Position numbers and translations under genes: made by a program
Assembly: GCF_029338295.1 (NCBI RefSeq)
Contig: NZ_CP119791.1
Span: 620,001-684,000, forward strand
Direction: 5' to 3'
DNA: 64,000 nt
Source of the DNA: Haladaptatus sp. QDMS2
GTDB taxonomy: Archaea > Halobacteriota > Halobacteria > Halobacteriales > Halococcaceae
The notes under the pieces: model-generated
Seen by the model: only the letters and a program-made list of their open reading frames with translations
What the model was told of the DNA's origin: nothing
The model's database searches: none
Part shown: positions 7,542 through 57,053 of the stretch, in pieces
Layout: every line of letters begins with the position of its first letter
Position numbering within the stretch: the stretch's first letter is position 1

Positions 7542-9797
7542 TTAGTTGTTCTCCTGGGCGTCCACGACGGCCACGGATGCCAGATTCACGATGTCCTTGA
7601 CCTCGTCGCCGCGCTGGAGGACGTGGACAGGTTTGTTCATGCCGACGAGCATCGGCCCGATGGCCTCCGCGCCGCCGAGGCGCTGCAGTAGTTTGTACGC
7701 GATGTTCCCCGCCTCCAGATTTGGGAACACGAGTACGTTGGCCGACTTCTTCAGATCCGAGAACGAGTACGTCCCGTCGAGAATGCTCTTGACGACGGCG
7801 GTGTCGGCCTGCATCTCCCCGTCAACCGGGAAGTCCACGGTTGGGTCGGCGCGGAGCGTGCGGGCCGCGCGGCGGACCTTCGCCGTGCCCTCGTTGTCCA
7901 CCGAACCGAAGTTCGAGTACGAGAGCAGGGCCGCACGCGGTTCGACGTTGAAGCGGCGTGCGAGCGTCGCCGTGTGCTTGGTAATCTCTGCGAGCACTTC
8001 TTCGGTTGGGTCCAGATTGACCGTGGTGTCCACGCAGAAGATGACGCGGTTCTTGAACGTGAGCATGTACACCCCGGCGGCGTAGTTGGCGTCTTCTGCC
8101 GTGCCGATGACCTGCAGCGGCGGGCGCAGCGCGGAGGGGTAGTGGTGGGTGAGGCCGGTGAGCATCGCGTCGGCGTCGCCCATCTCGACCATCACGCTGC
8201 CGAGGTAGTTGCCGTCGGCGATGAGTTCGTCCGCCTCACGCCGGGTGACGCCCTTGCGCCGACGCAGTTCGTAGAGACGCTCTGCGTACGGTTTCAGGTT
8301 GCTCTCGTCTGGGTCCACGATTTCGGGTTCGAATTCGAGACCGAGACGCTGGGCGGTCTGCCAGATTTCCTCCTGACTGCCGATGAGGATTGGCTCCGCG
8401 ATGCCCTGCTCGACGAGCTGGTAGGCCGCACGCACCATCTTCTCGTCGTCGCCTTCTGCGAGGACGACGCGCTTTGGGTCGAGTTTCGCCTTGTTGAGGA
8501 CGACGCGCATCATCTCGCGGGACTTCCCGAGGCGCGCTTCGAGTTTCTCGACGTAGCGGTCGATGTCGAGGTCGATGCGAGCGGCGTCGCTCTTGATGGC
8601 CGCTTTCGCGACGGCCGGAGCCACCTCGAACAGCACGCGCGGGTCGACCGGTTTCGGAATGATGTAATCCGGGCCGAACTGAATCGGCTGGTCGCCGTAG
8701 GCCTTGACCACGGCGTCGGGGACGTCCTGTCGGGCGAGGCGGGCGAGGGCTTCTGCGGCGGCGACCTTCATCTCCTCGTTGATCTCGCTGGCGCGCACAT
8801 CGAGTGCGCCCCGGAAGATGAAGGGGAACCCGAGGACGTTGTTCACCTGATTCGGGTAGTCAGAGCGGCCCGTCGCCATAATCACCGTGTCCTGTCGGGC
8901 GTCTTTGGCGTCCTCGTAGGTGATTTCTGGGTCGGGGTTCGCCATCGCGAAGATGACAGGGTCGTTCGCCATCGACCGAACCATATCTTGGCTCACGATG
9001 CCGGCGACCGAGAGGCCGACGAACACGTCTGCGCCTTCCATCGCGTCGGCGAGGTCGCCCTCGGGGATGTCGCGGGCGAATTGGCGTTTGTACTGGTTCA
9101 CCTCGCCTGCCTCGGCACGTTGTTCGGTGATGATGCCCGAGGAATCGCACATGGTGATGTTCTCTTTTTTTGCGCCGAGTGAGACGTAGAACCGGGCGGT
9201 TGCGATGGCGCTCGCCCCAGCCCCGGAAAACACGATGTCGAGTTTGTCGATGTCCTTGCCCACCACGTCCGTCGCGTTGAGCAGGGCGGCCCCAGAGATG
9301 ATGGCCGTCCCGTGCTGGTCGTCGTGGAACACGGGGATGTTCATCTCCTTTCGCAGGCGCTCCTCGATGGTGAAACACTCGGGGGCCTTGATGTCCTCTA
9401 AGTTGATGCCCCCGAACGTCGGTTCCATCGCCTTCGTCGCGGCGATGATGGCCTCCGGGTCATCGAGGTCGAGTTCGATGTCGAAGACGTCGATGTCGGC
9501 GAACCGCTTGAACAGGACGCCCTTGCCCTCCATCACCGGTTTCGAGGCCTGTGCGCCGATGTCCCCAAGGCCGAGCACCGCAGACCCGTTCGACACCACG
9601 CCCACCATGTTCCCCTTCGCGGTGTAGGTGTAGGCGTCGTCGGGATTTTTCTCGATTTCGAGACACGGTGCGGCCACCCCGGGCGAGTACGCGAGGCTCA
9701 GGTCGCGTTGGGTGTTCGTTGGCTTTGTCGTCGAAATCTCCAGTTTGCCTGGCGGGTCGCGCTTGTGGTATGCGAGAGAATCCTCATCAAGTCCCAT
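7542..9797 (-). CDS. maeB: NADP-dependent malic enzyme (malic enzyme-phosphotransacetylase fusion)
   Basis: A 751-residue cytoplasmic enzyme that converts malate to pyruvate and CO2 with reduction of NAD(P). Residues 1 to about 430 form the malic enzyme domain. It shows the catalytic Tyr in [10 protein letters not shown], a Lys in YTAKGNMVG, the substrate/metal region [10 protein letters not shown] and the Rossmann motif [15 protein letters not shown]. Residues about 430-751 resemble phosphotransacetylase ([36 protein letters not shown]), the usual MaeB fusion. In known MaeB enzymes that domain is regulatory, sensing acetyl-CoA, rather than catalytic. A TATA-like CTTTTTAG lies about 28 bases upstream of the ATG. 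Confidence 0.95.
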
Positions 9798-9882
9798 GGG
9801 TGTACTCCCGCAGGGTTCCCTAAAAAGCTATGCGAAGTCAGAGTTCGACGACTGTCGAAAACAGGGTGTGCCGCGGCAAACC

Positions 9883-10938
9883 TTACGCGAATCGGTCGTC
9901 GGTCGTGTCGCTATCGTCACCGTTCACGTCGCCCAGCGATTCTTCGTCATCCATCGGTCCGACTTCGTCCGTCGATTCATCTTCGGCCCGCACGGCCCGC
10001 CGCTGGGCCGGGATGAGGTCGAACTCGCCGTAAGAGTCGCCGAGCACGAACAGCGCGTAGTACCGGAAGAACACGGCAAATGGCACCTGCACGAACAGGA
10101 TGTAGAGCAACACCAGCAGTCCGAGCGGAATGGCCAGGATGACGAGGAAGGCGAGCACTGCGGTGCTCAGGCCACCTGCCGCCGTGAATATCCCGAAGCC
10201 GAGTAGTGCCGCGATGCCGAGTACGGGCAACAATACGACGGCGAGTGCGATGGCGGCGAGGATGCCCGCAGCAAAACCGAGCAACCACCGGAGAATAACG
10301 AAGAGACCGTACTGCTTCCACTGAGCACGAAGAATTGGCCAGAAACGCCGCCACCCGGCGATTACGCCGAGGTCTTCGCGCATCATCACGGGGACGACGA
10401 AGTCCGTGGTGAGCGTGAGCCCGATACCGAGCAAGAGCGCGATGATGAGCAAGAACGGAATCAGGAGGATGAGAAACAGCGGCGAGAAGGCGAAGATGAA
10501 CACTGCGCCGATTGCGAGAAACGGCGCGAGGATGAGCAAGACGAGGACGAGGGTGAACACGAACAGGCGCACGCCCTTTCCGAACCAGCGGTTGAACGGT
10601 CCGCGGATGCGGACTTCCTCGCTTCGCACGGCGTCCACGAAGACGAACTGGAAGACGGAACTCAACACTCCGAACAGAAGCGCGAGTAACCCGACGACGA
10701 CGCCGATGACGAGCACGATGGCGAGAATGTCACCCTGCCCGTCGATGGGTGGAATCTCGCCGCCCGGTGTGTCTCCGGCTGGAACCGAGAAGTTCGTGCC
10801 ACCCCCACCGCCGCTGACGCCGCCGATGAAGAAGACGATGAGCGCGAGTTTGAGCCACTTGCGGAAGTCGAACGGAAAGAGGAACTCTCGAGTCGCCTGA
10901 ATGGAGTCCTCGATCCCGTCGATAGCGTACCACGACAT
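9883..10938 (-). CDS. haloarchaeal multi-pass membrane protein
   Basis: About 351 residues. A conserved N-terminal cytoplasmic-looking segment (MSWYAIDGIEDSIQATREF) leads into a helix and a Gly-rich loop (GGVSGGGGGTNF). At least five further hydrophobic segments lie between residues 75 and 310, and the acidic C-terminal tail ends in repeated Asp residues. The pattern matches a family found in most haloarchaea with no known function. A GTG seven codons upstream could also start translation; I prefer the ATG at 10938 because the conserved segment begins there. Confidence 0.7.
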   Translation of the reverse strand: MSWYAIDGIEDSIQATREFLFPFDFRKWLKLALIVFFIGGVSGGGGGTNFSVPAGDTPGGEIPPIDGQGDILAIVLVIGVVVGLLALLFGVLSSVFQFVFVDAVRSEEVRIRGPFNRWFGKGVRLFVFTLVLVLLILAPFLAIGAVFIFAFSPLFLILLIPFLLIIALLLGIGLTLTTDFVVPVMMREDLGVIAGWRRFWPILRAQWKQYGLFVILRWLLGFAAGILAAIALAVVLLPVLGIAALLGFGIFTAAGGLSTAVLAFLVILAIPLGLLVLLYILFVQVPFAVFFRYYALFVLGDSYGEFDLIPAQRRAVRAEDESTDEVGPMDDEESLGDVNGDDSDTTDDRFA

Positions 10939-11029
10939 GTCAGGTGAATCAAAAGTCACGCAGGGGTAAGAAGCTACCCCTGACCCGACTCGGACACATC
11001 TAAGTACTACCGGGACTGAGTTCCGACCA

Positions 11030-11524
11030 ATGAACCTCCGTTACCGGCATCTGGCCGCCGTTACGGCGGGGCTGACCTACCTCCTCATCCTACTTGGGGT
11101 GTACACGAGTCTGATGGGCGCAGGAGCATCGTGCAGTTTGCAGTGGCCACTCTGTGACGGCGGCTTCCTGCCCCAGACCGCCGCCGGCTGGATCGAGTGG
11201 ACCCACCGACTGGTCGCGATGATAACCGGCTTCTTCATCCTCGGGACGGCCTACGGCGCGTGGAAGCACAAATCCGACCCACGCCTGAAGAAGGCCACCG
11301 CCGTCGCGACGGTGTTTCTCCCGACGCAGATTCTGCTCGGCGCAGTCACGGTGAAGGGCTACATCTGGTTCGGCAACATCCAGCACCTCGTCGTGCTCGC
11401 CCACCACGGAACGGCGATGATTATCTTCGCCGCAACCGTGGCCACGACGGCCTGGGCCTATTCGGCTGACAGGAGCGAGAAAACCACGGTTCCGTCACGC
11501 AATTCTGCCCCTGCAGACGACTAA
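11030..11524 (+). CDS. ctaA: COX15/CtaA-family heme A synthase-like protein
   Basis: A 164-residue membrane protein with four hydrophobic segments, corresponding to one half of bacterial CtaA, as in other archaea. Family features are the first helix TYLLILLGVYTSLMGAG, the ClassII-like Cys pair in SCSLQWPLCDGG, the heme-ligand His in IEWTHRLVAMITGFF, and a second His in VVLAHHGTAMII. CtaA oxidises heme O to heme A for cytochrome oxidase; half-size archaeal forms probably work as dimers. No cytochrome oxidase genes are nearby. The hydrophilic tail after the last helix is poorly conserved. Confidence 0.85.
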   Translation: MNLRYRHLAAVTAGLTYLLILLGVYTSLMGAGASCSLQWPLCDGGFLPQTAAGWIEWTHRLVAMITGFFILGTAYGAWKHKSDPRLKKATAVATVFLPTQILLGAVTVKGYIWFGNIQHLVVLAHHGTAMIIFAATVATTAWAYSADRSEKTTVPSRNSAPADD

Positions 11525-11566
11525 CATCACGAAACGTTATTATCTGTCAGGTGGCCTTTTTACTGC

Positions 11567-12421
11567 ATGGACCGCAAGGTAGCTGCTGACATGGATCGCC
11601 GCGCATATCTGAAACTCGTCGGAGCCGGCGGAGCCGCCGGAATGATGGGTCTCGCTGGCTGTACCGGTGGCGGTGGGGACGGCACCCCGACCACGACCAC
11701 GACCGAAGACGGTGGCAACGGAACCACGACCACTGGTGACGGAAACGGCGACGTGACGACTATTACGCCCGGCACCGCGCCCGGATTCGCCCCCTTCGAG
11801 TTCAAGCAAGGCGACGAACTGGTCGGCTTCGACATCGACCTGACCGCGGCCGTCGTGGAGAACATGGACGGCTACGAACTCGGTGAGTGGCAGGAGTTCG
11901 AGTTCGCGTCGCTCATCCCCGCGCTCACGAGCGAGAACATCGACCTCATCGCCGCCGCGATGACGATAAACGACGAACGTAAACAGACGATTGCGTTCTC
12001 CGACCCCTACTACGAGGCAGACCAGTCGGTGCTCGTCGCCGCTGGCGGTGACTTCTCGCCGTCCTCGCTCGACGACCTGAACGGCCACCCGGTCGGGGCA
12101 CAGAAGGGGACCACTGGCGAATCCATCGTTCAGGAACAGGTTCCGGACGCAACCTACCGCGGCTACGACAACTACGTCCTCGCGGTGCGTGACCTCGAGA
12201 ACGGCAACGTAGACGCCGTCGTGCTCGACAAGCCGGTCGCCGAAAACTTCGCCTCGAACTCCAACGTCGAAGTCGCGTTCGTCGAGGAAACCGGCGAACA
12301 GTACGGCCTTGGTGTGCGCCAGGATTCAGACTTCCTCGACGCGCTCAATCAGGCGCTCGCCACCGTGCAGGACGACGGCACCTACGACGAACTCGTGAAC
12401 AAGTGGTTCGGACAGGAATAA
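11567..12421 (+). CDS. amino acid ABC transporter substrate-binding lipoprotein
   Basis: A 284-residue exported protein of the type 3 periplasmic-binding family (polar/basic amino acids). The N-terminus has a Tat-like DRRAYLKLVGAGG followed by the lipobox LAGC, so the mature protein should be a lipid-anchored binding protein on the cell surface. A Thr/Gly-rich spacer (about residues 38-65) is typical of haloarchaea. The binding domain begins near GTAPGFAPFEF, with FDIDLTAAVVENM and MTINDERKQTIAFSDPYYEA as family signatures. An alternative ATG at 11591 would start directly before the Tat motif. It is the first gene of a four-gene importer operon. Confidence 0.9.
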   Translation: MDRKVAADMDRRAYLKLVGAGGAAGMMGLAGCTGGGGDGTPTTTTTEDGGNGTTTTGDGNGDVTTITPGTAPGFAPFEFKQGDELVGFDIDLTAAVVENMDGYELGEWQEFEFASLIPALTSENIDLIAAAMTINDERKQTIAFSDPYYEADQSVLVAAGGDFSPSSLDDLNGHPVGAQKGTTGESIVQEQVPDATYRGYDNYVLAVRDLENGNVDAVVLDKPVAENFASNSNVEVAFVEETGEQYGLGVRQDSDFLDALNQALATVQDDGTYDELVNKWFGQE

Positions 12422-12429
12422 GCCAGTAG

Positions 12430-13122
12430 ATGACAGCCACAGCCCCTATCTTGCAGGCGAGTGACTGGGCGTTCATCGCCGAGAACGCCGAGTTTATCAT
12501 CGATGGGCTGGTGGTCACGATTCTGCTTACACTTTCGAGTATCACACTCGGGTTCCTCATCGGTTTTCCAGCTGGAGCCATCGAAGTGTACGGAAGCGGC
12601 CCGCTCAAGTGGGCCGTCGAGACGGCGGGTGTCGTCATTCGCGGCATCCCAATCGTCGTCATCCTCGTGTACATTTTCTTCGTGCTCTCGCTGAGTAACG
12701 ACCCCTTCTGGGCGGCGACAATCGGGCTCGGCCTCCGTGGTGGGGCATATCAGTCGCAGATTTTCCGCGGTGCGTTCCAGAGCGTGTCGACCGGACAGAT
12801 GGAAGCCGCGCGGTCGATTGGCCTCTCGCGTCTGCAGGCGATTCGCCACGTCATCGTCCCGCAGGCGCTCCGTCGGAGCGTCCCCGGATTCCAGAACGAG
12901 TTCACCATCGTGCTGAAAGACACGAGTGTCGCACTCGTGGTGGGGCTCTCCGAGATGCTCACGCGCGGCCGGGACCTCTACCTCCAGCCAGAGGGTGGGT
13001 CTGCCGTGCTCGAAGTGTTCTTGACCATCAGCGCCATCTACTTCGTCCTCACGTTCGTGACCAACCGCAGCCTCGACAAACTCAACGATTACTATGCAAT
13101 TCCCGGAGGGAACTCACGATGA
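12430..13122 (+). CDS. amino acid ABC transporter permease
   Basis: A 230-residue inner membrane permease of the His/Glu/Gln/Arg type with about five transmembrane segments. The ATPase-contact (EAA) loop is near residues 117-140 (MEAARSIGLSRLQAIRHVIVPQA). It forms a channel with the second permease at 13868-14848. It begins eight bases after the binding-protein stop and overlaps the ATPase gene by four bases (ATGA), showing translational coupling. Confidence 0.92.
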   Translation: MTATAPILQASDWAFIAENAEFIIDGLVVTILLTLSSITLGFLIGFPAGAIEVYGSGPLKWAVETAGVVIRGIPIVVILVYIFFVLSLSNDPFWAATIGLGLRGGAYQSQIFRGAFQSVSTGQMEAARSIGLSRLQAIRHVIVPQALRRSVPGFQNEFTIVLKDTSVALVVGLSEMLTRGRDLYLQPEGGSAVLEVFLTISAIYFVLTFVTNRSLDKLNDYYAIPGGNSR

Positions 13123-13871
13123 CTGACCCACTGCTTCGCGTCGAAAACATCTCTAAGTCCTACGGCGACGAGGAGGTGCTTCGCGACATTAGCTTCGAGA
13201 TGGACGCCGGTGACGTCGAAGTGCTCATCGGGCCGTCAGGCAGCGGGAAGTCTACGATGCTTCGGTGTGTGAACCGCCTCACCGAAATCGACTCAGGTGC
13301 TATCTATCTGGACGGCGAGGAAGTCACCGCACCCGGCTACGACGTGAACAAACTCCGCCGCGAAGTGGGCATGGTGTTCCAGGACTTCAACCTCTTTGCC
13401 CACCTCAAAGCCCGCGAGAACATCACGCTTGGCCTGCGGAAAGTCCGCGGCATGAGCAAGGAAGAGGCGAACGAACGGGCGATGCGACACTTAGAGCAAG
13501 TCGGTCTCGCCAATCAGGCGGACTCCTACCCGGCGCAACTCTCCGGCGGGCAGAAACAGCGCGTCGGCATCGCCCGGGCGCTCGCGATGGACCCAAAACT
13601 CATGTTGTTCGACGAACCGACGAGTGCACTCGACCCCGAACTCATCGGCGAGGTGCTCGCCGTCATGCGAAAACTCGCAGAAGAGGGCATGACCATGCTC
13701 GTTGTCACCCACGAGATGAGCTTCGCGCGTGAAGTGGCCTCCGGCATCTCGTTTCTCGCCGGTGGCTCGCTCGTCGAGCGCGGCCCACCCGAACAGCTGT
13801 TCAGGAACCCGGAACACGAACGCACCCGTCAGTTCCTGAGCCGCCTCTCGACGACGGAGTCACACGGATGA
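13119..13871 (+). CDS. amino acid ABC transporter ATP-binding protein
   Basis: A 250-residue ATPase that powers the importer. Visible motifs in order are Walker A GPSGSGKST (near residue 38), Q-loop VFQDFNLF, signature LSGGQKQRVGIAR (near 140), Walker B LMLFDEPTSALD and the switch His in VVTHEM. The closest known group is GlnQ/HisP-like ATPases. It is translationally coupled on both sides: its ATG overlaps the upstream stop and its stop overlaps the downstream ATG, each by four bases. Confidence 0.94.
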   Translation: MTDPLLRVENISKSYGDEEVLRDISFEMDAGDVEVLIGPSGSGKSTMLRCVNRLTEIDSGAIYLDGEEVTAPGYDVNKLRREVGMVFQDFNLFAHLKARENITLGLRKVRGMSKEEANERAMRHLEQVGLANQADSYPAQLSGGQKQRVGIARALAMDPKLMLFDEPTSALDPELIGEVLAVMRKLAEEGMTMLVVTHEMSFAREVASGISFLAGGSLVERGPPEQLFRNPEHERTRQFLSRLSTTESHG

Positions 13872-46869: not shown

Positions 46870-47979
46870 ATGGGTCTTCTCAAACCACCACTGCACGGCG
46901 TCCACGACGCCCGCGGTGCGAAGTTCACCGAGTTCGGCGGCTGGGATATGCCAGTCGAGTTCGACTCTATCCGAACCGAACACGAGAGTGTTCGGGAGGC
47001 CGCTGGCATCTTCGACGTGAGCCACATGGGCGAAATCATCGTCTCCGGCCCCGACGCCGAGGCGCTCATGCAGCGACTCACCTCGAACGACGTCACCGTC
47101 CTCTCGCCGGGCGACGCACAGTACTCGATGATTACGAACGAAGACGGCGTCATCATCGACGACACCGTCGTGTATCGGCTCCCCGACGCTATCGAGGGCG
47201 ACTACCTGTTCATCCCGAACGCCGGGCACGACGGCGAGATGCAACGGCGATGGGAAACCCACCGCGACGAGTGGGGCCTCGACGCCAGCGTCGAGAACGT
47301 CACGTCAGACTGGGCGATGTTCGCGCTCCAGGGCCCCGACGCGGAAAAGTTGCTCATGGCAGCGGTCGACGAGCACACGCCCGCCGAACCGACCGCCGTC
47401 CAGAACCTGAAGTCGTTCACGGCGACGGTGCTCTCGTTCGACGGCGCGGAGTGCATCGTCGCCCGGACGGGCTACACCGGCGAGGACGGGTTCGAAATCC
47501 TCGCACCGTGGGACGACGCAGAAGCCGTGTGGGAGCTGTTCGACGTGCAGCCGTGTGGACTCGGCGCACGCGACACCCTGCGCATGGAGATGGGCTTTCT
47601 CCTCTCCGGGCAGGACTTCCACCCGGAGGACAACCCGCGAACGCCCTACGAGGCGGGGCTCAGTTTCACCGTCAAACTCGACACCGAGTTCGTGGGCCGC
47701 GACGCGCTCGAACGCCAGCACGCAGAGGGCGTAGCGGAGAAGTTCGTCGGCTTCCAGCTCCTGGAGCGCGGCGTCCCGCGACACGGGTACGATATTACTA
47801 ACACAGATGAGGAGCATATCGGCACAGTGACGAGCGGGACGATGAGTCCGACACTGGGCGAACCAATCGGACTCGGGTACGTTCCCGTCGACTATGCGGA
47901 CCCGGACACGACGATTCACGTCCTCGTCCGTGGTAATCCGAAGAAAGCAGTCATCAAATCACTCCCCTTCAACCAATGA
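46870..47979 (+). CDS. gcvT: glycine cleavage system T protein (aminomethyltransferase)
   Basis: A 369-residue tetrahydrofolate-dependent enzyme that releases ammonia from the aminomethyl group carried on GcvH, making methylene-tetrahydrofolate. It begins [27 protein letters not shown]. Folate-site residues are in FDVSHMGEI and [14 protein letters not shown], and the C-terminal LGLG-like segment PIGLGYV is typical. The ATG at 46870 fits the family; in-frame ATGs upstream would add codons of non-coding character. The gcvH ATG overlaps its stop by four bases. Confidence 0.94.
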
Positions 47980-48359
47980 CATTCGAAGTACCAGACGACC
48001 TCAAGTATCAGGAATCACACGAGTGGGCACGCGCAGCAGACGGAACGGCCAAAATCGGCATCACCGACTTCGCCCAGGACGAACTCGGCGACATCGTGTT
48101 CGTCGAACTGCCCGACGTCGGGGACGACGTGAGCAAGGGTGCGGAGTTCGGCGTCGTCGAATCCATCAAAGCCGTCTCCGACCTCTACGCACCGGTCTCC
48201 GGGACGGTCACCGCGGTCAACGACCAGGTGTTCGACGCCCCGGAACTCGTAAACGACGACCCGTACGGCGACGGCTGGATGCTGGAAGTCGAACTCACGG
48301 ACGAATCTGAACTCGACTCCCTGCTCACACCGGACGACTACGAAGACCAGATCGCCTGA
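47976..48359 (+). CDS. gcvH: glycine cleavage system H protein
   Basis: A 127-residue lipoyl carrier shuttling the aminomethyl group between P and T proteins. The lipoylated Lys is in [20 protein letters not shown]. The start [39 protein letters not shown] is the family pattern. Translation is coupled to gcvT (ATGA overlap). A T6 tract at 48373-48378 just after the stop may end the transcript. Confidence 0.96.
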
Positions 48360-48372
48360 CCCGGCGAGCGAC

Positions 48373-48378
48373 TTTTTT
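48373..48378 (+). terminator. T-tract after gcvH
   Basis: TTTTTT about 13 bases after the gcvH stop, preceded by GCGAGCGAC. Short T-runs commonly end archaeal transcripts. It suggests gcvTH and gcvPAPB may be separately transcribed despite adjacency. Confidence 0.4.
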
Positions 48379-48549
48379 GCGCCTCACCGAAGCGTGTCAG
48401 TCAAACACAATGCACGGGTGTGTATCGTCTGTCCCGGCAACCGCGTCGGATGGACACTGTCGTGATAATCGACGCAATCATATGCGATAGTCTGTAACCA
48501 ACTACCATCGTGCGGCCACAAACCGGACAACAGCGGTTCTTCGCAAACT

Positions 48550-49884
48550 ATGAGTGATTCAGCAACCCCCGGCAGTCCTTTCGCCCCGCACACGCCAGAC
48601 GAGACGCAGGCGATGCTCGACGTTCTCGGCGTGGCGAGCGAAGAGGACCTGTTCGACATCCCAGACGACGTCGCGTTCGACGGCACGTTCGGCATCCCAC
48701 AGCGCAGTGAGCAATCCGTTCGCGCACGCGCAGACAAGATGCTCAACCGAAACGCAAATCTGACCGAGTTCCTCGGGCGAGGCCACTACAGCCACTACAT
48801 CCCCTCGCTCGTGGACAACCTCTCTATCCGGTCTGAGTTTCTGACCTCCTACACCCAATACCAGCCGGAAGTCGCCCAGGGCTTCCTGCAGGTGCTGTTC
48901 GAGTACCAGTCGATGCTCGCGGAACTCACGGGCCTCGAAATCGCCAATTGCTCGATGTACGACGCGGCGACCGCCCTCGGCGAGGCGGCCACGCTCGCAA
49001 ATCGCCTGCGCAAGACGTCAGGCCACCGCGTGCTCGTCCCGAAAGCCATCTCCGTGGGTCGCCGCGACGTGCTCGAAAACTACGTCGATGGCTCCGAGAT
49101 GGTCGTCGAATCCTACGCCATGGACGACGGAAACGCGGACCTCGACGTGCTCACCGACCTCGTAGACGACGACGTGGTCATGATTTACGCCGAGAATCCG
49201 ACCGTCCGGGGGACGATAGAGGAGGGGCTCGCCAAACTCGGCAAACTCGCCCACGACAACGACGCCATCTTCACCCTCGGCAGCGACCCCGTCGCGCTCT
49301 CGCTGCTCGAAAAACCGTCCGACGTCGGCGCAGACGTGGTCGTCGGCGACGCCTCGACGCTCGGCATCCCGACGAGTTTCGGCATGGGCCTCGGCATCTT
49401 CGCCTGCCGCGAGGACTTCCTGCGGCAGGTTCCCGGTCGCCTCGTCGGCATCTCCGAGGATTCTGCGGGCATGCGCGCCTACACGCTCACGCTTCAGACG
49501 CGCGAACAGCACATCCGCCGCGAGCGGGCCACCTCGAACATCTGTTCGAACCAGGCGTGGGTCGCCCTCCGGGCGGCGATGCATATTGCCATGCTCGGCC
49601 CGGACGGCCTCGTGGACCTCGCGAGGGACTGCGTCACCCGTCCCGAGGAACTCGCAGAACGTCTCGACGATATCAGCGGGATTCAGGCCCCGGTTCACGA
49701 CCGGTATCACTTCCGGGAGTTCGTCGCCCACACGGACCAACCTGCGAAGGCCATCGTTTCAGACCTCGCGGGCAAGGGCTTCGCCGTCCACCGGGTCGGC
49801 GAACACGAGGTGCAGGTGTGTGTGACCGAGACCAACGCCATCGCCGTAGACGAGTTCGTCGCGGCATTCGAGGAGGTAGCCTAG
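48550..49884 (+). CDS. gcvPA: glycine dehydrogenase subunit 1 (P protein, N-terminal part)
   Basis: A 444-residue half of the two-subunit P protein, as in many archaea and Gram-positives. It decarboxylates glycine and loads the aminomethyl group onto GcvH. It shows [51 protein letters not shown] regions and [19 protein letters not shown]. The PLP Lys is on subunit 2. The 190-base gap from gcvH may carry its own promoter. The stop codon is immediately followed by the gcvPB ATG. Confidence 0.94.
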
Positions 49885-51312
49885 ATGTTCTACGACCAGG
49901 CTCGCTGGACCCACGACTCAGAAGACGTGTACGAACCGCTGCTCTCTGAAAAGAGCACGAAGACGGTGAAAATCGACGAGTCACCGCTCCCGCCGTCGCT
50001 CACGCGCGACGACCTCGAACTGCCGAATCTCTCGGAGCCGGAACTCGCCCGCCACTACACCCGGCTGAGCCAGATGAACTACGGCATCGAGTCGGGGCCG
50101 TTCCCGCTCGGCAGTTGTACGATGAAGTACAACCCGAAATTCACCGACGACATCTCGACGATTCCGGCGGGAGCCGTCCACCCGGAGCGTCCAGACGAGA
50201 CGATTCAGGGGACGCTCGAACTACTCTACAAGCTCCAGGACTACCTCGGGCGCATCGGTGGCATGGACGCGGTTACGCTCCAGCCACCTGCGGGCGCGGC
50301 CGGTGAGTTCACGGGCATCCTCATCGCCAAAGCCTTCCACGAGGCAAACGGCGACGACGAGCGGACGGAAATCATCATCCCCGACTCCGCTCACGGGACG
50401 AACTTCGCGACCGCTGCGCTCGCCGGCTACGACGTGGTTTCGCTGCCGAGCGACGAGGACGGGCGCGTGGACTTAGAAGCCCTCGAAGTCGCCGTCTCCA
50501 ACCAGACGGCCGCGCTCATGCTCACGAATCCGAACACACTCGGACTGTTCGAGCGAAACATCGAGGAAATCGCCACCATCGTCCACGACGCGGGCGGCCT
50601 GCTCTACTACGACGGGGCGAATCTGAACGCCCTCCTCGGGCGGGCCCGTCCGGGTGACATGGGCTTCGACATCATGCACTACAACGTTCACAAGACGTTC
50701 GCGACGCCCCACGGCGGTGGCGGACCCGGGGCTGGACCGGTCGGGGTCACCGAACGCCTCGCCGAGTTCCTGCCACGTCCGCACATCAAACAGCACAAGG
50801 GCGGGTACCGACTGTACGACCCAGAACAGTCGGTCGGCAAGGTTCACGGCTTCCACGGCAACTGGCTCGTCCTCGTTCGTGCGTTCGCCTACATCGACCG
50901 TCTGGGTGACGCCGGTCTCGCCGACGCGAGCGCGAAAGCAGTGCTTAATGCGAACTATCTCGCGAGCCAGATAGACTACGACGTGCCGTACGGGCCGTTC
51001 CACCACGAGTTCGTCGCGAGCGCGGGCGACCAGGACGCAGCCGACGTGGCAAAGCGGATGCTCGACTTCGGCGTCCACCCGCCGACGACGAAGTGGCCGG
51101 ACATCGTCTCACAGGCGCTGATGACCGAACCGACGGAAATCGAGAACCGCGAGACGCTCGACCAACTCGCAACTGCCTTCAACGCCGTCGTCGGCGAGGA
51201 CGACGACGTACTCGAATCGGCCCCGTCTCGGACGGCGGCTCGCCGTATCGACCAGGTGCAGGCCGCGCGCAACCCGCGCCTGTCGTGGCACGCACTCGAG
51301 ACGGAGGACTGA
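49885..51312 (+). CDS. gcvPB: glycine dehydrogenase subunit 2 (P protein, C-terminal part)
   Basis: A 475-residue subunit carrying the PLP Lys in MHYNVHKTFATPHGGGGPGAGPVG near residue 272. Other signatures are SGPFPLGSCTMKYNPK and LQPPAGAAGEFTGI, plus the Asp-containing GLLYYDGANLNALLG cofactor region. It forms the active P enzyme with gcvPA. ATG at 49885 abuts the preceding stop with no gap, so translation is coupled. Dihydrolipoamide dehydrogenase (L protein) is not in the window. Confidence 0.95.
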   Translation: MFYDQARWTHDSEDVYEPLLSEKSTKTVKIDESPLPPSLTRDDLELPNLSEPELARHYTRLSQMNYGIESGPFPLGSCTMKYNPKFTDDISTIPAGAVHPERPDETIQGTLELLYKLQDYLGRIGGMDAVTLQPPAGAAGEFTGILIAKAFHEANGDDERTEIIIPDSAHGTNFATAALAGYDVVSLPSDEDGRVDLEALEVAVSNQTAALMLTNPNTLGLFERNIEEIATIVHDAGGLLYYDGANLNALLGRARPGDMGFDIMHYNVHKTFATPHGGGGPGAGPVGVTERLAEFLPRPHIKQHKGGYRLYDPEQSVGKVHGFHGNWLVLVRAFAYIDRLGDAGLADASAKAVLNANYLASQIDYDVPYGPFHHEFVASAGDQDAADVAKRMLDFGVHPPTTKWPDIVSQALMTEPTEIENRETLDQLATAFNAVVGEDDDVLESAPSRTAARRIDQVQAARNPRLSWHALETED

Positions 51313-51353: not shown

Positions 51354-51383
51354 AAGTAACGCATGCCTCTAGTTCCGGTATGG

Positions 51384-52718
51384 ATGATTGAGAAACTGGA
51401 CCGGCGACGACTGGTGATTCTGTTCACGCTCGTCGTCGTCTTACTCTCGACACTGGTCCTCGCCCAGCCAACCACGGTCCAGGATGCTGCCCCTCCCGCA
51501 GAACTCAGGCAGACACCGGAGGGAGTTCACCTCGTCGAAGGCGCTCCGAACAGTTCGGCGATGCTCTGGCCCTACACGAGTCGCTCTCACTCGTTCTCCC
51601 AGCGGACGCTCCCGATAAATATGATCGTCCACGGGAACGCCTCGCGGGTTCGGTATATCCTGATGGAACAGACTGACGCCAAGTGGAACGTCACCAGAGA
51701 CGAGTGGGTTCCGGCCCAACCCGAAGAGCAATTGGAAGGACAGCGCGGTCCGCGCATCGACTGGGGGTCTACCCGCGGTGCTGACCGCTTCGTCTACATC
51801 CACAACCCGGTCAGTCGGACCGGCCAGGTGGGTGTTGACCCCGAAACCGAAGGCGGCGGCCTCTGGGTTCCGGAGACGTATCAGGTCCACGACGGCACCT
51901 ACCTCGGGACGCGCACGCACATCCGTCTCTACGCGGGCGGCTCTGGCGATTCGGCGTGGACCGCGATGCAGATTCACCACGAACACTGGGACTGGTTCCG
52001 CCTGCGACACACGGTCGGGAGTCTGGAGAAGGGGCGCACTGAGGTCGAACGCGACCTCATCGGTGCGCCCTTCGTGACGGACGTGACCCGTGAGTACCAC
52101 GGCACGCGCCGCACCATCGACGCCGACGGCTGGACGACCATCATCGACCTCGATAGTCGCAACGGCACCGCGACCGGATTGTCGGTCGCACCGCTGCTCG
52201 GCCTCCTGTTCGTCCCGGCGCTTACCCGTCGGCTCGACGACGTCGCCATGCAGGTGAGAAAACGCACCCGCCACTGGCCGCTTCCGCCACGAAGCGTGCT
52301 CCTGTTCGGGTCGATGGTCGGACTGATGCTGTTCGTCCGCATCGGCGCGGTCACCGTGGAATCGTGGAACGTGACCGAATCGCCGAAACTCATCGCGGGG
52401 TTCTTCTACCCGTTCCTCGCTGCTGGGATTCCACTCGCGGCGTACAAGCTCGCCCAGGGACTGGAGCGCGACGACGCGTTCTTGCTCGCCATGTTCGGTC
52501 TCGGCTTTGGCATCCTCGCGGACTACGCCTACCTCGACATCGAGGTGATTCCCGTGAACGTGATGCTCCACCGCATCGTGCTCGCGGTGGCAATCGGCGT
52601 CCTCGCCGCTGGCGGTGCGCGCTACGGCGCTGGCGAGTCTCGGCTCAACAGACACCTCGTGGGCGGTCTCGTCCTCTGGATTTGCTCGCTCGTCTGGCCG
52701 CTGCTCGGCTGGGTGTGA
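51384..52718 (+). CDS. membrane protein with exported middle domain, unknown family
   Basis: About 444 residues. An N-terminal anchor (LVILFTLVVVLLSTLVLA) is followed by about 200 residues that look extracellular. These are rich in Trp, Tyr, His and Asp, with WVPAQPEEQ and QIHHEHWDWFRLRH. From about residue 245 five to six hydrophobic segments finish the protein. The middle part has features of a beta-rich sensor or ligand-binding domain. I recognise no family. It follows gcvPB but has its own TATA-like box. An alternative start at 51363 adds seven residues. Confidence 0.65.
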   Translation: MIEKLDRRRLVILFTLVVVLLSTLVLAQPTTVQDAAPPAELRQTPEGVHLVEGAPNSSAMLWPYTSRSHSFSQRTLPINMIVHGNASRVRYILMEQTDAKWNVTRDEWVPAQPEEQLEGQRGPRIDWGSTRGADRFVYIHNPVSRTGQVGVDPETEGGGLWVPETYQVHDGTYLGTRTHIRLYAGGSGDSAWTAMQIHHEHWDWFRLRHTVGSLEKGRTEVERDLIGAPFVTDVTREYHGTRRTIDADGWTTIIDLDSRNGTATGLSVAPLLGLLFVPALTRRLDDVAMQVRKRTRHWPLPPRSVLLFGSMVGLMLFVRIGAVTVESWNVTESPKLIAGFFYPFLAAGIPLAAYKLAQGLERDDAFLLAMFGLGFGILADYAYLDIEVIPVNVMLHRIVLAVAIGVLAAGGARYGAGESRLNRHLVGGLVLWICSLVWPLLGWV

Positions 52719-52961: not shown

Positions 52962-54827
52962 ATGCCCCCTGACCCCTCATCTGCCCCTGCCCCTCCGCGC
53001 GCGCTCTCCCGTCGGACACTGCTGGCCGGTCTCGCGACGGGTAGTCTCGCCGCGACCAGCGGTTGCATTCGCCAACTGCGCACACTCGCGAACCGCGACG
53101 CCCCAGACCAGGTCTCACTCGAAATCAAAACCGCCCCGGCCGATGCCGACCCGCGGTCCATCTACATCGCCCGCTTTCTCTCCTCGAACCTGAACGCCGT
53201 CGGCATCGAGACGTCCATCGTCCCGATGAGCCTCGAGGAACTCCTGCGCGACGTGCTGTTGAACCAGTCGTTCGACATCTACGTGATGCGCCATCCGCGG
53301 ACCGCCAGTCCGAACTTCGTCTACTCGCTGTTGCACTCGCGATTCGACGCGGAACCCGGCTGGCAGAACCCCTTCGGCTACGCCAACCTCGGCGTCGACG
53401 ACATGCTTGACGAACAGCGCACCCAATCGGGCGACGCCCGCGAGGCGACGCTCCACGAGATACAGTCGGCCGTCGCACGCGACCAACCGTTCGCCCCAAT
53501 CGCCATCCCCGACGAGATACGGGCGACGCGTGGCGACCGCTTTTCTGGCTGGTCGGCTGCCGACATGCACACGCTGCTCGGCTACCTCAGACTCCGTCCA
53601 ACGACGACCGAGACCCCCGAACAACCGCAGAACGGACCCACCAACGAGACGACGACAGAGACGTCACAGCAGACGACGGCCCCGCCGCTCCGGATGACGC
53701 TCAAGGACCCTCGTGCGACGCGCAACCTCAACCCCATCGCGGTCGAGTTCCGCGGCGACGGTGACATCACCGAGATGCTGTACGACCCGCTTGCCCGCCC
53801 CATCGGTGGGGACCTCGTCCCGTGGCTCGCCCACGAGTGGTCGTGGGTCGATTCAGACACCGCCGGGCCCGCAGTCGAGGTCACGCTTCGCGAAGATTTG
53901 CTCTGGCACGACGCCACGCCACTCACGGCGGCCGACGTTGCCTTCACGTTCGACTTCCTCAGAGACACGTCAGGCGGGGCACTCGACAGTCCGGTGCCGG
54001 CCCCCCGCTATCGGGACCGTTCGACGTTGGTTACGCAGGCCGTCGAAACCGGTAGACGAACCGTCCGCATCGAGTTCGAACCGGTGAGTCGGGAAGTTGC
54101 CCAGACGGCGTTTTCACTCCCGCTGTTGCCAAAGCACATCTGGGAGACGAAGACGGGGCAGGCGACCATCGCGGGCCTCGATACCATCGGCGGCGTGACC
54201 GAGGCGCTCATCTGGAGTAACTCCAACCCGGTCGGGTCGGGGCCGCTTCGGTTCGTGAGCGCAACCGATGGCGAATCACTCACCCTCGCGCCGTTTGACG
54301 ACCACTTCCTCACCCGGGACGTCTCGGATGGGCCGCTCGCCCCGTTCCAGGGTGGATTCGAACCGTCGGAACTCGAATTCGTCGTCGTCCCCTCCGACGG
54401 AGCCGCCCTCGCGCTGATGGAACAGGACGATGCGGACGCGACTGCCTCGCCGCTCGGCGCGGAGTCCATCTCACAGATTGGGCAGTCGGACGTCTTGCGC
54501 CTGCACGTCTCGAAGCCCACCTCGTTTTACCACGTCGGGTTCAACGTGCGCCAGTCGCCGCTCAGCAACCCGCGATTTCGTCGGGCGGTCGCGCAGCTGC
54601 TCGACAAACAGCACATCGTAAACGAGGTGTTCGGCGGCTACGCATCCGCCATCGCCACGCCACTCGCGCCCTATCCCGTGGCTGCGCCCGCCCTGCGCTG
54701 GGAGGGCGAAGACCCTGAGCTGCCGTTCCCCGGGGAAGATGGAGAACTCGACATCGAATTGGCGAAAGAGTCATTCCGGTCTGCTGGTTATCGATACAAC
54801 GAAGCAGGCGAGCTGCTGAGGCGATAA
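52962..54827 (+). CDS. oligopeptide-type ABC substrate-binding lipoprotein, apparently circularly permuted
   Basis: A 621-residue exported protein with Tat motif LSRRTLLAG and a lipobox ending at Cys35. Residues about 50-210 match the normal C-terminal lobe segment of family 5 (OppA/DppA) binding proteins (ADPRSIYIARFLSSNLNAVGI, FDIYVMRHPRT, LGVDDMLDEQR, RFSGW). A Thr/Gln/Pro linker (212-242) leads to residues 243-621, which match the normal start and middle (LNPIAVEF, LREDLLWHDATPLTAADVAFTFDF, NVRQSPLSNPRFRRAVAQLLDKQHI). The protein then ends at AKESFRSAGYRYNEAG, just where the N-terminal segment would normally follow. No permease genes are adjacent; the PAP2 gene starts four bases later. 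Confidence 0.85.
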   Translation: MPPDPSSAPAPPRALSRRTLLAGLATGSLAATSGCIRQLRTLANRDAPDQVSLEIKTAPADADPRSIYIARFLSSNLNAVGIETSIVPMSLEELLRDVLLNQSFDIYVMRHPRTASPNFVYSLLHSRFDAEPGWQNPFGYANLGVDDMLDEQRTQSGDAREATLHEIQSAVARDQPFAPIAIPDEIRATRGDRFSGWSAADMHTLLGYLRLRPTTTETPEQPQNGPTNETTTETSQQTTAPPLRMTLKDPRATRNLNPIAVEFRGDGDITEMLYDPLARPIGGDLVPWLAHEWSWVDSDTAGPAVEVTLREDLLWHDATPLTAADVAFTFDFLRDTSGGALDSPVPAPRYRDRSTLVTQAVETGRRTVRIEFEPVSREVAQTAFSLPLLPKHIWETKTGQATIAGLDTIGGVTEALIWSNSNPVGSGPLRFVSATDGESLTLAPFDDHFLTRDVSDGPLAPFQGGFEPSELEFVVVPSDGAALALMEQDDADATASPLGAESISQIGQSDVLRLHVSKPTSFYHVGFNVRQSPLSNPRFRRAVAQLLDKQHIVNEVFGGYASAIATPLAPYPVAAPALRWEGEDPELPFPGEDGELDIELAKESFRSAGYRYNEAGELLRR

Positions 54828-54831
54828 CTCG

Positions 54832-55674
54832 ATGGCCCTGTTCGAAATCCTCGCGTATCTCGCGATCGGCGTCGGCGTCATGATTGCCATCGGGTCGGTG
54901 ACGTTCATCGGCCCCAGTCAGCTCTCGGTGTTGCGCGAAAACTGGCGCTTCCGGTTGCGCGAGGTTTCCCCCTACCTTGGCTTACTTGCCGGTATCCTCG
55001 CGATAAACAAGGTCGCTCGCCAAGTCGGCCCCGAGATATCGTGGGTCGTCGGCCTCAACATCACGAGCTACATCTATCGCATCGAGGGTGACTTCGTCGC
55101 GTTCGTCCAATCAATCGCCACAGACCAGCTCACGGTGTATTTCTCGTTCATCTACCTCTACGGCTACGTGTTCTTGCTCGTGTTCCCGTTCATCCTCACG
55201 TTCGCGCTTCGGGAGACGAAGTACCTGAAACAGACGGCGGTCGCCTTCGCGCTCAACTACTCGCTCGGCCTCATCTTCTATATCCTGTTCGTCTCCTATG
55301 GGCCGCGAAATCTGATTCCGGACCTCGTGGACCCTCTCATGTACTCGATGTATCCACAATCACAACTCCTGACCGGGGAGGTGAACTCGAACACGAACGT
55401 CTTCCCGTCGCTGCACACCTCGCTTTCGGTGACGGTGGCGTACCTCGCGTGGTTCACCCGCGACCGGTTCCCCTACTGGTTCGTCACGAGTTGCTTCCTC
55501 GCCGCGAGCGTGGTTATGGCGACGATGTACCTCGGCATCCACTGGGGGACGGACGTCGTCGCCGGGACGATACTCGGCCTCGGCAGCGTCCACATCGCGA
55601 GAAAGCACTACGAAATCTTCGAGTTCCTCCGGGTTGACCTCTGGTCCCTCCCGGTCTTCAATCGACTGCGCTGA
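54832..55674 (+). CDS. PAP2-family membrane phosphatase/transferase
   Basis: A 280-residue membrane protein with about six to seven hydrophobic segments. The catalytic His residues of the PAP2 (lipid phosphatase/inositolphosphotransferase-like) fold appear in NVFPSLHTSLSVTVAYL and MYLGIHWGTDVVAG. The N-terminal Lys-rich phosphate motif of soluble family members is not evident. Members dephosphorylate lipid phosphates or transfer head groups. The start is four bases after the binding-protein stop, so they may be co-transcribed; a functional link is not obvious. Confidence 0.85.
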   Translation: MALFEILAYLAIGVGVMIAIGSVTFIGPSQLSVLRENWRFRLREVSPYLGLLAGILAINKVARQVGPEISWVVGLNITSYIYRIEGDFVAFVQSIATDQLTVYFSFIYLYGYVFLLVFPFILTFALRETKYLKQTAVAFALNYSLGLIFYILFVSYGPRNLIPDLVDPLMYSMYPQSQLLTGEVNSNTNVFPSLHTSLSVTVAYLAWFTRDRFPYWFVTSCFLAASVVMATMYLGIHWGTDVVAGTILGLGSVHIARKHYEIFEFLRVDLWSLPVFNRLR

Positions 55675-56543: not shown

Positions 56544-56711
56544 TCAGGCGGAGACGCTGGAGTCGATGCCGTTGATCTTGATGAACGCGTAGTTGCACTC
56601 TGGACAGCGCCACTTGGTCTTCGTGCCGAGGTGGACCGTCATGCTCGCGGCCTTGTAGAACGTCCGCGTCTCCCCACACTGCGGGCAGTCGTGCTCGAGT
56701 TCGAGGCTCAT
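56544..56711 (-). CDS. small zinc-finger protein with two CPxC pairs
   Basis: A 55-residue protein with CPQCG near the start and CPECN near residue 36, a zinc-ribbon arrangement of two knuckles. It opens MSLELEHDCP and has a helical-looking middle (TRTFYKAASMTVHLGTKTKW). It belongs to the many short haloarchaeal CPxCG zinc proteins, some affecting motility or biofilm, most uncharacterised. The ATG at 56711 is preferred; extended in-frame reading to 56870 contains many unlikely residues. Confidence 0.8.
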   Translation of the reverse strand: MSLELEHDCPQCGETRTFYKAASMTVHLGTKTKWRCPECNYAFIKINGIDSSVSA

Positions 56712-57053
56712 ATTCGTCCATCTATCCCCATCGCAATTTAACGTACTGGTTCGGTTACGGTGCAGGCTATGTACGCAACGATAGCACCCGAACAGTCCGC
56801 CCCGCGGTGGCCGCACGTGCGGCCACCAGGCAACTGAATTTGCTCGCATAAATGGTATGCGACGATACAAATTATTTCCTCAGGGATGTGCCCATCTATC
56901 TCCTAAAACCTGGCCACTTGAGTGCAATACGACCGCAGGAACTTCACCGAGTGTTGAATATAGAGAGTATGCAGCAGAAGATTCTGTTCAGCTATTAGCT
57001 GCGCTGCTAAATAGAGGGGCAGTTCTTAGTCGCTGTTCAGTGTGAGCACGCCT
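56712..57053. other. gap with a 22-base palindrome, no clear gene
   Basis: Contains GC-rich dyads near 56806-56827 and then AT-rich sequence to 57020. A short plus-strand frame at 56857-57045 is AT-rich, not acidic overall, and lacks a promoter-start arrangement. Its end (AEDSVQLLAALLNRGAVLS) faintly recalls a haloarchaeal regulator, so it could be a regulator fragment, but the evidence is weak. Confidence 0.3.
56806..56827. repeat. 22-base perfect palindrome
   Basis: GGTGGCCGCAC is followed directly by its inverted copy GTGCGGCCACC with no spacer. It lies about 95 bases upstream of the zinc-finger ATG (minus strand) and could act as a cruciform, an operator or a 3' end signal. Confidence 0.55.

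Follow-up and report, generated by a model that had tools for sequence, protein, structure and literature searches.

Which role is played by a peptide-type binding protein whose segments appear in swapped order, and which has no permease gene nearby, is the question raised by a locus of Haladaptatus sp. QDMS2. The whole stretch of DNA analyzed, called the window throughout, measures 64,000 nt. The open reading frame at 52962–54827 of the window, on the forward strand, is intact and encodes 621 residues. Its parts are the following.

52962..54827, + strand: predicted substrate-binding lipoprotein of family 5 (SBP_bac_5), near-certainly circularly permuted, 621 aa plus stop (open reading frame, Pfam, class PERM by native HMMs, AlphaFold)
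52962..53066, + strand: predicted Tat-type signal with lipobox (RRTLLAGLATGSLAATSGC, Cys35) (sequence reading, TAT/lipobox pattern, homologue alignments)
53100..53600, + strand: residues 47–213, the native C-terminal part placed first (hhalign, PDB profile matches, Foldseek of the segment model)
53601..53687, + strand: residues 214–242, Thr/Gln/Pro-rich linker between the native C-end and the native N-end (homologue alignment, low pLDDT)
53688..54824, + strand: residues 243–621, N-terminal and middle family 5 parts, ending at the AKESFRSAGYRY helix/loop (Pfam, hhalign, Foldseek)

The protein matches SBP_bac_5 (PF00496) at 145.3 bits, the Pfam cut-off being 32.4, in two blocks found in swapped order: residues 285–616 correspond to profile positions 2–284, residues ~57–122 to positions 292–359. 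The shorter match is weak on its own (E 0.044), and the N-segment modeled alone by AlphaFold is mediocre (pLDDT 72, pTM 0.52). Both data would suit an artefact, either a family 5 protein that was truncated and carries an unrelated N-terminal domain, or a native gene frameshifted or misassembled. Profile comparisons speak against it. In HMM-HMM alignments to native haloarchaeal proteins, the profile of residues 47–213, made from 47 homologues, matches only residues 391–540 of 562 (E 2.8e-9), and the full alignment places query residues 254–611 on native residues 63–385 (E 3.4e-35). In the PDB the same N-segment profile matches family 5 chains in their C-terminal regions (5u4o 371–500, E 7e-8; AppA 370–495; DppA 357–487), as well as LpqW (2grv, 1e-6). 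The listed family 5 relatives of known structure match both parts of the protein separately, and the top 50 Foldseek matches of the N-segment model are all family 5 binding-protein chains (E 0.003 and weaker). The fusion of an unrelated N-terminal domain to a family 5 protein is ruled out, because the N-segment matches fall in the native C-terminal part.

The native N-to-C order of the domain is absent from the protein, which is rotated at one break. It terminates at ...AKESFRSAGYRYNEAGELLRR, a helix directly followed by the C-terminal part in native proteins. Reading the letters only, the initial annotation had recognized the usual C-terminal segment in residues ~50–210, the N-terminal and middle segments in residues 243–621, a stop exactly where the native C-terminal segment starts, and a Thr/Gln/Pro linker joining the swapped parts. 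All these assignments hold: Pfam, HMM-HMM and PDB profile searches set the C-terminal match before the N-terminal one, residues 50–210 are not an unrelated domain, and residues 243–621 contain no complete native-order domain. The linker is made by the T/Q/P-rich stretch PTTTETPEQPQNGPTNETTTETSQQTTAPP, and differs in length among homologues. That the chain is circularly permuted is near certain.

Structure prediction, which had been suggested as a check, gave one confident AlphaFold fold for the full-length protein (pLDDT 87, pTM 0.83), the main part of which matches family 5 structures. Blocks of both swapped parts mostly exceed 85, the start is disordered, and the linker is low (pLDDT 53–60 around residues 221–240). 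Best PDB relatives found by Foldseek are 4pfu (TM1226; E 4e-16), 4oeu (NikZ) and AccA. Only ~400 columns could be aligned to family 5 structures, as expected, because a sequential aligner meets a rotated chain. The break maps to mature residue ~354 of E. coli OppA and to residue 341 of DppA, and hence lies inside domain III of OppA (residues ~271–486). The new termini had been placed between the lobes in the initial annotation; they reside instead within one lobe, by these approximate domain limits. Therefore the lipid anchor would hang from another lobe than the anchors of native proteins.

Arg17-Arg18 and Gly34-Cys35 are invariant in 14 homologues, and Cys35 is invariant in 47. From these sequence features, the protein is predicted to be a secreted lipoprotein exported by the Tat route.

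Homologues of the permuted protein were identified in 188 of 292 sampled Halobacteria genomes, distributed in 56 of 77 genera. Most are full-length, and identities range from ~36 to 77% among the matches listed. Eighty loci were fetched and sorted with HMMs built from the N and C parts of native proteins. The 78 homologues that could be classified are all permuted, with no native one among them, and native controls, including DppA and OppA, were correctly read as native. A sample of 120 genomes of the phylum gave matches in permuted order only, at E 1e-40. The swapped order is thus conserved in haloarchaea. A recent event in this genome is not borne out, the proteins forming a subclass that is old, inherited widely and accompanied by PAP2. 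Duplication and trimming, as proposed in the initial annotation, may have produced the rotated chain. Conservation across 188 genomes, full-length in most cases, the uniform class of the 78 sorted homologues and the confidence of the full-length model in both parts make an artefact extremely improbable.

The permuted gene is preceded and followed, on the same strand, by genes encoding membrane proteins.

51363..52718, + strand: 451-aa membrane protein without known family (by hydropathy, a single TM at the N-terminus, then a conserved extracytoplasmic-looking domain and ~6 TM)
54832..55674, + strand: PAP2_3 membrane phosphatase/phosphotransferase-type protein (PF14378 5.8e-18, PF01569 4.2e-11), starting 4 nt after the stop codon of the binding protein

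Flank comparison placed the PAP2 gene directly downstream of the binding protein gene, in the same orientation, at 78 of the 80 loci. The gap measures 4 nt in the window; across the 80 loci, possible PAP2 starts commonly overlap the preceding stop by 1 or 4 nt. In the three PAP2 motifs, the catalytic residues (Arg159, Pro-Ser-Leu-His195 or PSLH195, and His237-x3-Asp241) are invariant in 79 proteins. The PAP2 protein was found in 190 of the 292 genomes, the binding protein in 188; the two sets, compared by eye, differ by G129 and G249, where a profile search recovers the binding protein too, in G249 as a fragment at the edge of a contig. The two genes hence co-occur in 190 of the 190 genomes having either one. 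Tandem duplications of the pair (SBP-PAP2-SBP-PAP2) mark Natronorubrum, Natrialba and relatives. Haloferax species are among the carriers of the pair. At one locus of Halorussus amylolyticus (L052) a permuted gene lacks an adjoining PAP2. As a genomic fact, the conserved pairing is near certain. Linkage and co-occurrence can also result from a shared pathway, with no contact between the two proteins.

Relatives of the upstream membrane protein are found in 36 of the 80 loci, and in 26 of the 80 they are encoded on the same strand and end less than 500 nt upstream of the binding protein gene. The family features the conserved motifs G-x-Y-x-G-x-R-x-H-x-R-x-Y and DWFRxRH. The window member has no match in Pfam or NCBIfam, and five other members have none in Pfam; an LssY_C domain, also considered, gave no match in 18 genomes of the organism's family, this one included. 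Arylsulfotransferase-like and membrane glycosyltransferase-like genes lie near the pair in 16–20 of the 80 loci (L040–L068 and others), the second label being given by eye on a Pfam match below cut-off; these neighbours hint at a glycolipid or sulfation pathway. In the window, the cluster is preceded by glycine cleavage-like genes (GcvH, then two glycine dehydrogenase subunits, 47976–51312, by eye), and a small zinc-ribbon-like protein of the DUF7838 type (PF25208) is encoded at 56547–56870.

Permeases of the DppB/DppC oligopeptide type are missing from the 64 kb window and from all 80 related loci, analyzed with flanks of as much as 8 kb, which extends the remark of the initial annotation that none is adjacent. 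ATPase matches in the window are weak and lie 22–40 kb from the gene. Membership in family 5 might still denote an orphan importer component, delivering a solute to an Opp/Dpp-type permease encoded elsewhere, with PAP2 acting beforehand, outside the cell, to remove phosphate from a substrate such as a phosphorylated nutrient. Several Opp permeases do reside in haloarchaeal genomes (e.g. around L131–L134), and related permuted proteins are encoded in Opp operons, as described below, so that the permuted fold is apparently able to serve permeases. Not only the missing permeases, but also the strict pairing with PAP2 and the loss of the native GW motif (see below) are at odds with such a component. 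PAP2_3 proteins, moreover, are integral membrane enzymes, the usual substrates of which are lipids. An orphan importer is rated as rather unlikely.

A second permuted family 5 protein is encoded in the same genome, within a complete Opp operon (L130, 8806–10497; G000:C2, ~156806–158496). A divergent gene for an M28-type peptidase flanks this operon, and M28 peptidase genes adjoin also the permuted-protein operons of Ketogulonicigenium, Neorhizobium and Microvirga plasmids, the match being weaker in Microvirga. Further permuted family 5 proteins were identified in haloarchaea and in Alphaproteobacteria (Nitratireductor, Neorhizobium, Microvirga and Ketogulonicigenium; the annotated Neorhizobium gene, L157, is split in two, and its permuted frame was read in part). 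A swap specific to haloarchaea is ruled out by the alphaproteobacterial members. Three loci suspected from split Pfam matches, L162, L164 and L166, were unconfirmed as permuted by the two-part HMM test. Permeases and ATPases lie near the ABC-linked permuted proteins, among those the surroundings of which were fetched. Judged by this gene context, a rotated fold does not preclude ABC transport, since permuted proteins sit in Opp operons, and the PAP2-linked lineage represents a departure.

Relationships were analyzed in a tree drawn from native-order columns. PAP2-linked permuted proteins make a single clade (support 100), with which the permuted proteins of Opp operons group (support 92). Three changes of state are required to explain permutation on this tree. 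The AU test rejects one common origin for the permuted proteins as a whole (p=0.0007), because one of them, L165, sits inside a native clade; when L165 is left out, one origin of the remaining proteins is not rejected (AU p 0.55). Because the tested group was chosen with the tree already in view, these p-values lean low. Taken together, the two AU results support at least two independent permutations, and only two origins are safe. The permutation of L165 (7209–9101, G014:C1), nested in native proteins, is apparently independent; its start, GYPYGVNETQVEQARQVMEEAGY, and its end, QESYDQHYQG, correspond to adjacent stretches of the native protein L134. At the L134 locus, a frame at 8491–13572 resembles by eye the large subunit of archaeal DNA polymerase II, with an intein-like insertion. 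The ends of permuted proteins fall near the same helix, at model positions ~378–391 in the main group, 357–374 in the L158 group and 355 in L165, out of 548. The chances are about even that a single tolerant helix was the site of repeated permutation in family 5, giving rise to a 'cluster Cc', and that one lineage was captured by PAP2 in a haloarchaeal lipid-phosphate pathway, as a module undescribed before.

What the protein does can be proposed by combining structure and neighbourhood. It is fairly probable that the permuted Tat-lipoprotein left ABC transport and is part of a PAP2-coupled unit, most likely as partner of PAP2 at the outer face of the membrane. The chain carries the native C-terminal segment first, the native termini being joined by the linker and the new ends being set at the helix ending in AGYRY. 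Part of the wider permuted subclass is still encoded in Opp-type ABC importer operons, the PAP2-linked lineage having probably left this type of transport. The lipoprotein would act on the outer membrane face together with the PAP2-type enzyme; binding of a small ligand from the cell exterior, or of a head group that PAP2 releases or is offered, may close its two lobes, and the closed form may feed or regulate the phosphatase or phosphotransferase action of PAP2, the lipid substrate being a polyprenyl- or archaeol-phosphate. The analysis shows that the protein is permuted and conserved, that its gene is coupled to and co-occurs with a PAP2 gene having intact motifs, and that permeases are absent; a function as PAP2 partner is likely, and we infer the physical contact, the side of action, the lipid substrate and the ligand.

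Two peptide-binding determinants of native proteins were compared. In 19 PAP2-linked members, the Trp in the GW motif of native proteins is replaced. The residue corresponding to DppA Asp436, which PDB entry 8z1z lists as mutated, is variable in the same 19 members, in a gapped part of the alignment, and is Asp in only 12 of 26 natives. With neither position conserved across the PAP2 clade, the ligand has likely changed, judging from the alignment.

A sensory or signalling lipoprotein would also bind a surface ligand, and report it through PAP2 or the upstream membrane protein, with no handling of substrate. The conserved extracytoplasmic-looking domain of the upstream protein, found in 36 of the 80 loci, could fit such a function, as could the study of the permuted TpMglB-2 as a putative chemoreceptor (PMC4990184). 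The upstream gene is missing from most loci, and the active-site motifs of PAP2, intact in 79 proteins, argue for enzyme work. Signalling is thus distinctly improbable, and partnership with the PAP2 enzyme is retained as the favoured function.

Annotation pipelines count family 5 binding proteins as parts of transporters, and many haloarchaeal labels reading 'ABC transporter substrate-binding protein' would be wrong. The strictly conserved pair would provide a defined entry to lipid-phosphate or lipid-carrier metabolism of haloarchaea. Repeated permutation, with ABC-linked and ABC-free descendants, makes the role of termini and anchor position in permease docking testable.

The closest known proteins are OppA, DppA and NikA (family 5, or cluster C; PF00496), which have in common with the permuted protein homologous segments, fold and lipoprotein export. 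In contrast to them, the permuted protein is rotated, lacks an adjacent permease, does not keep the GW motif, and has PAP2 as partner gene. The permuted proteins of Opp operons (L130, L179 of Ketogulonicigenium, L156 of Nitratireductor) feature the same rotated order, broken at nearly the same helix. They differ in being adjoined by permeases and ATPases, and no relative of the window PAP2 was matched in their loci; L130, the Opp-operon case read closely, also lacks the long linker of the PAP2-linked protein. Searches of the open-access literature found no report of permuted family 5 proteins. The PAP2 partner has the domain and the catalytic residues of PAP2_3 (PF14378) phosphatases and phosphotransferases, and differs from them by its pairing with a binding protein, of which no report was found in the same literature.

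A natural circularly permuted, tethered binding lipoprotein of known crystal structure is TpMglB-2 (Tp0684) of Treponema pallidum, assigned to cluster Bc (PMC4990184). It has a cluster B sugar-binding fold, belongs to another family and is broken elsewhere than the family 5 proteins, and its permuted part is poorly conserved in sequence relative to the native one. For function, the nearest parallel is offered by mycobacterial lipoproteins resembling binding proteins, which lack transporters and bind membrane glycosyltransferases, as in the LpqZ-AftA and FecB-AftB pairs (PMC12802301). These pairs and LpqW associate binding-protein-type lipoproteins with membrane enzymes of the envelope in place of ABC transporters; LpqZ and FecB resemble other families of binding proteins, their partners are glycosyltransferases rather than PAP2 proteins, and they are not known to be permuted. 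Bacterial PAP2 proteins recycle lipid carriers (PMC9876793), and this activity, along with the mycobacterial parallel, favours the role of the permuted lipoprotein as a PAP2 partner.
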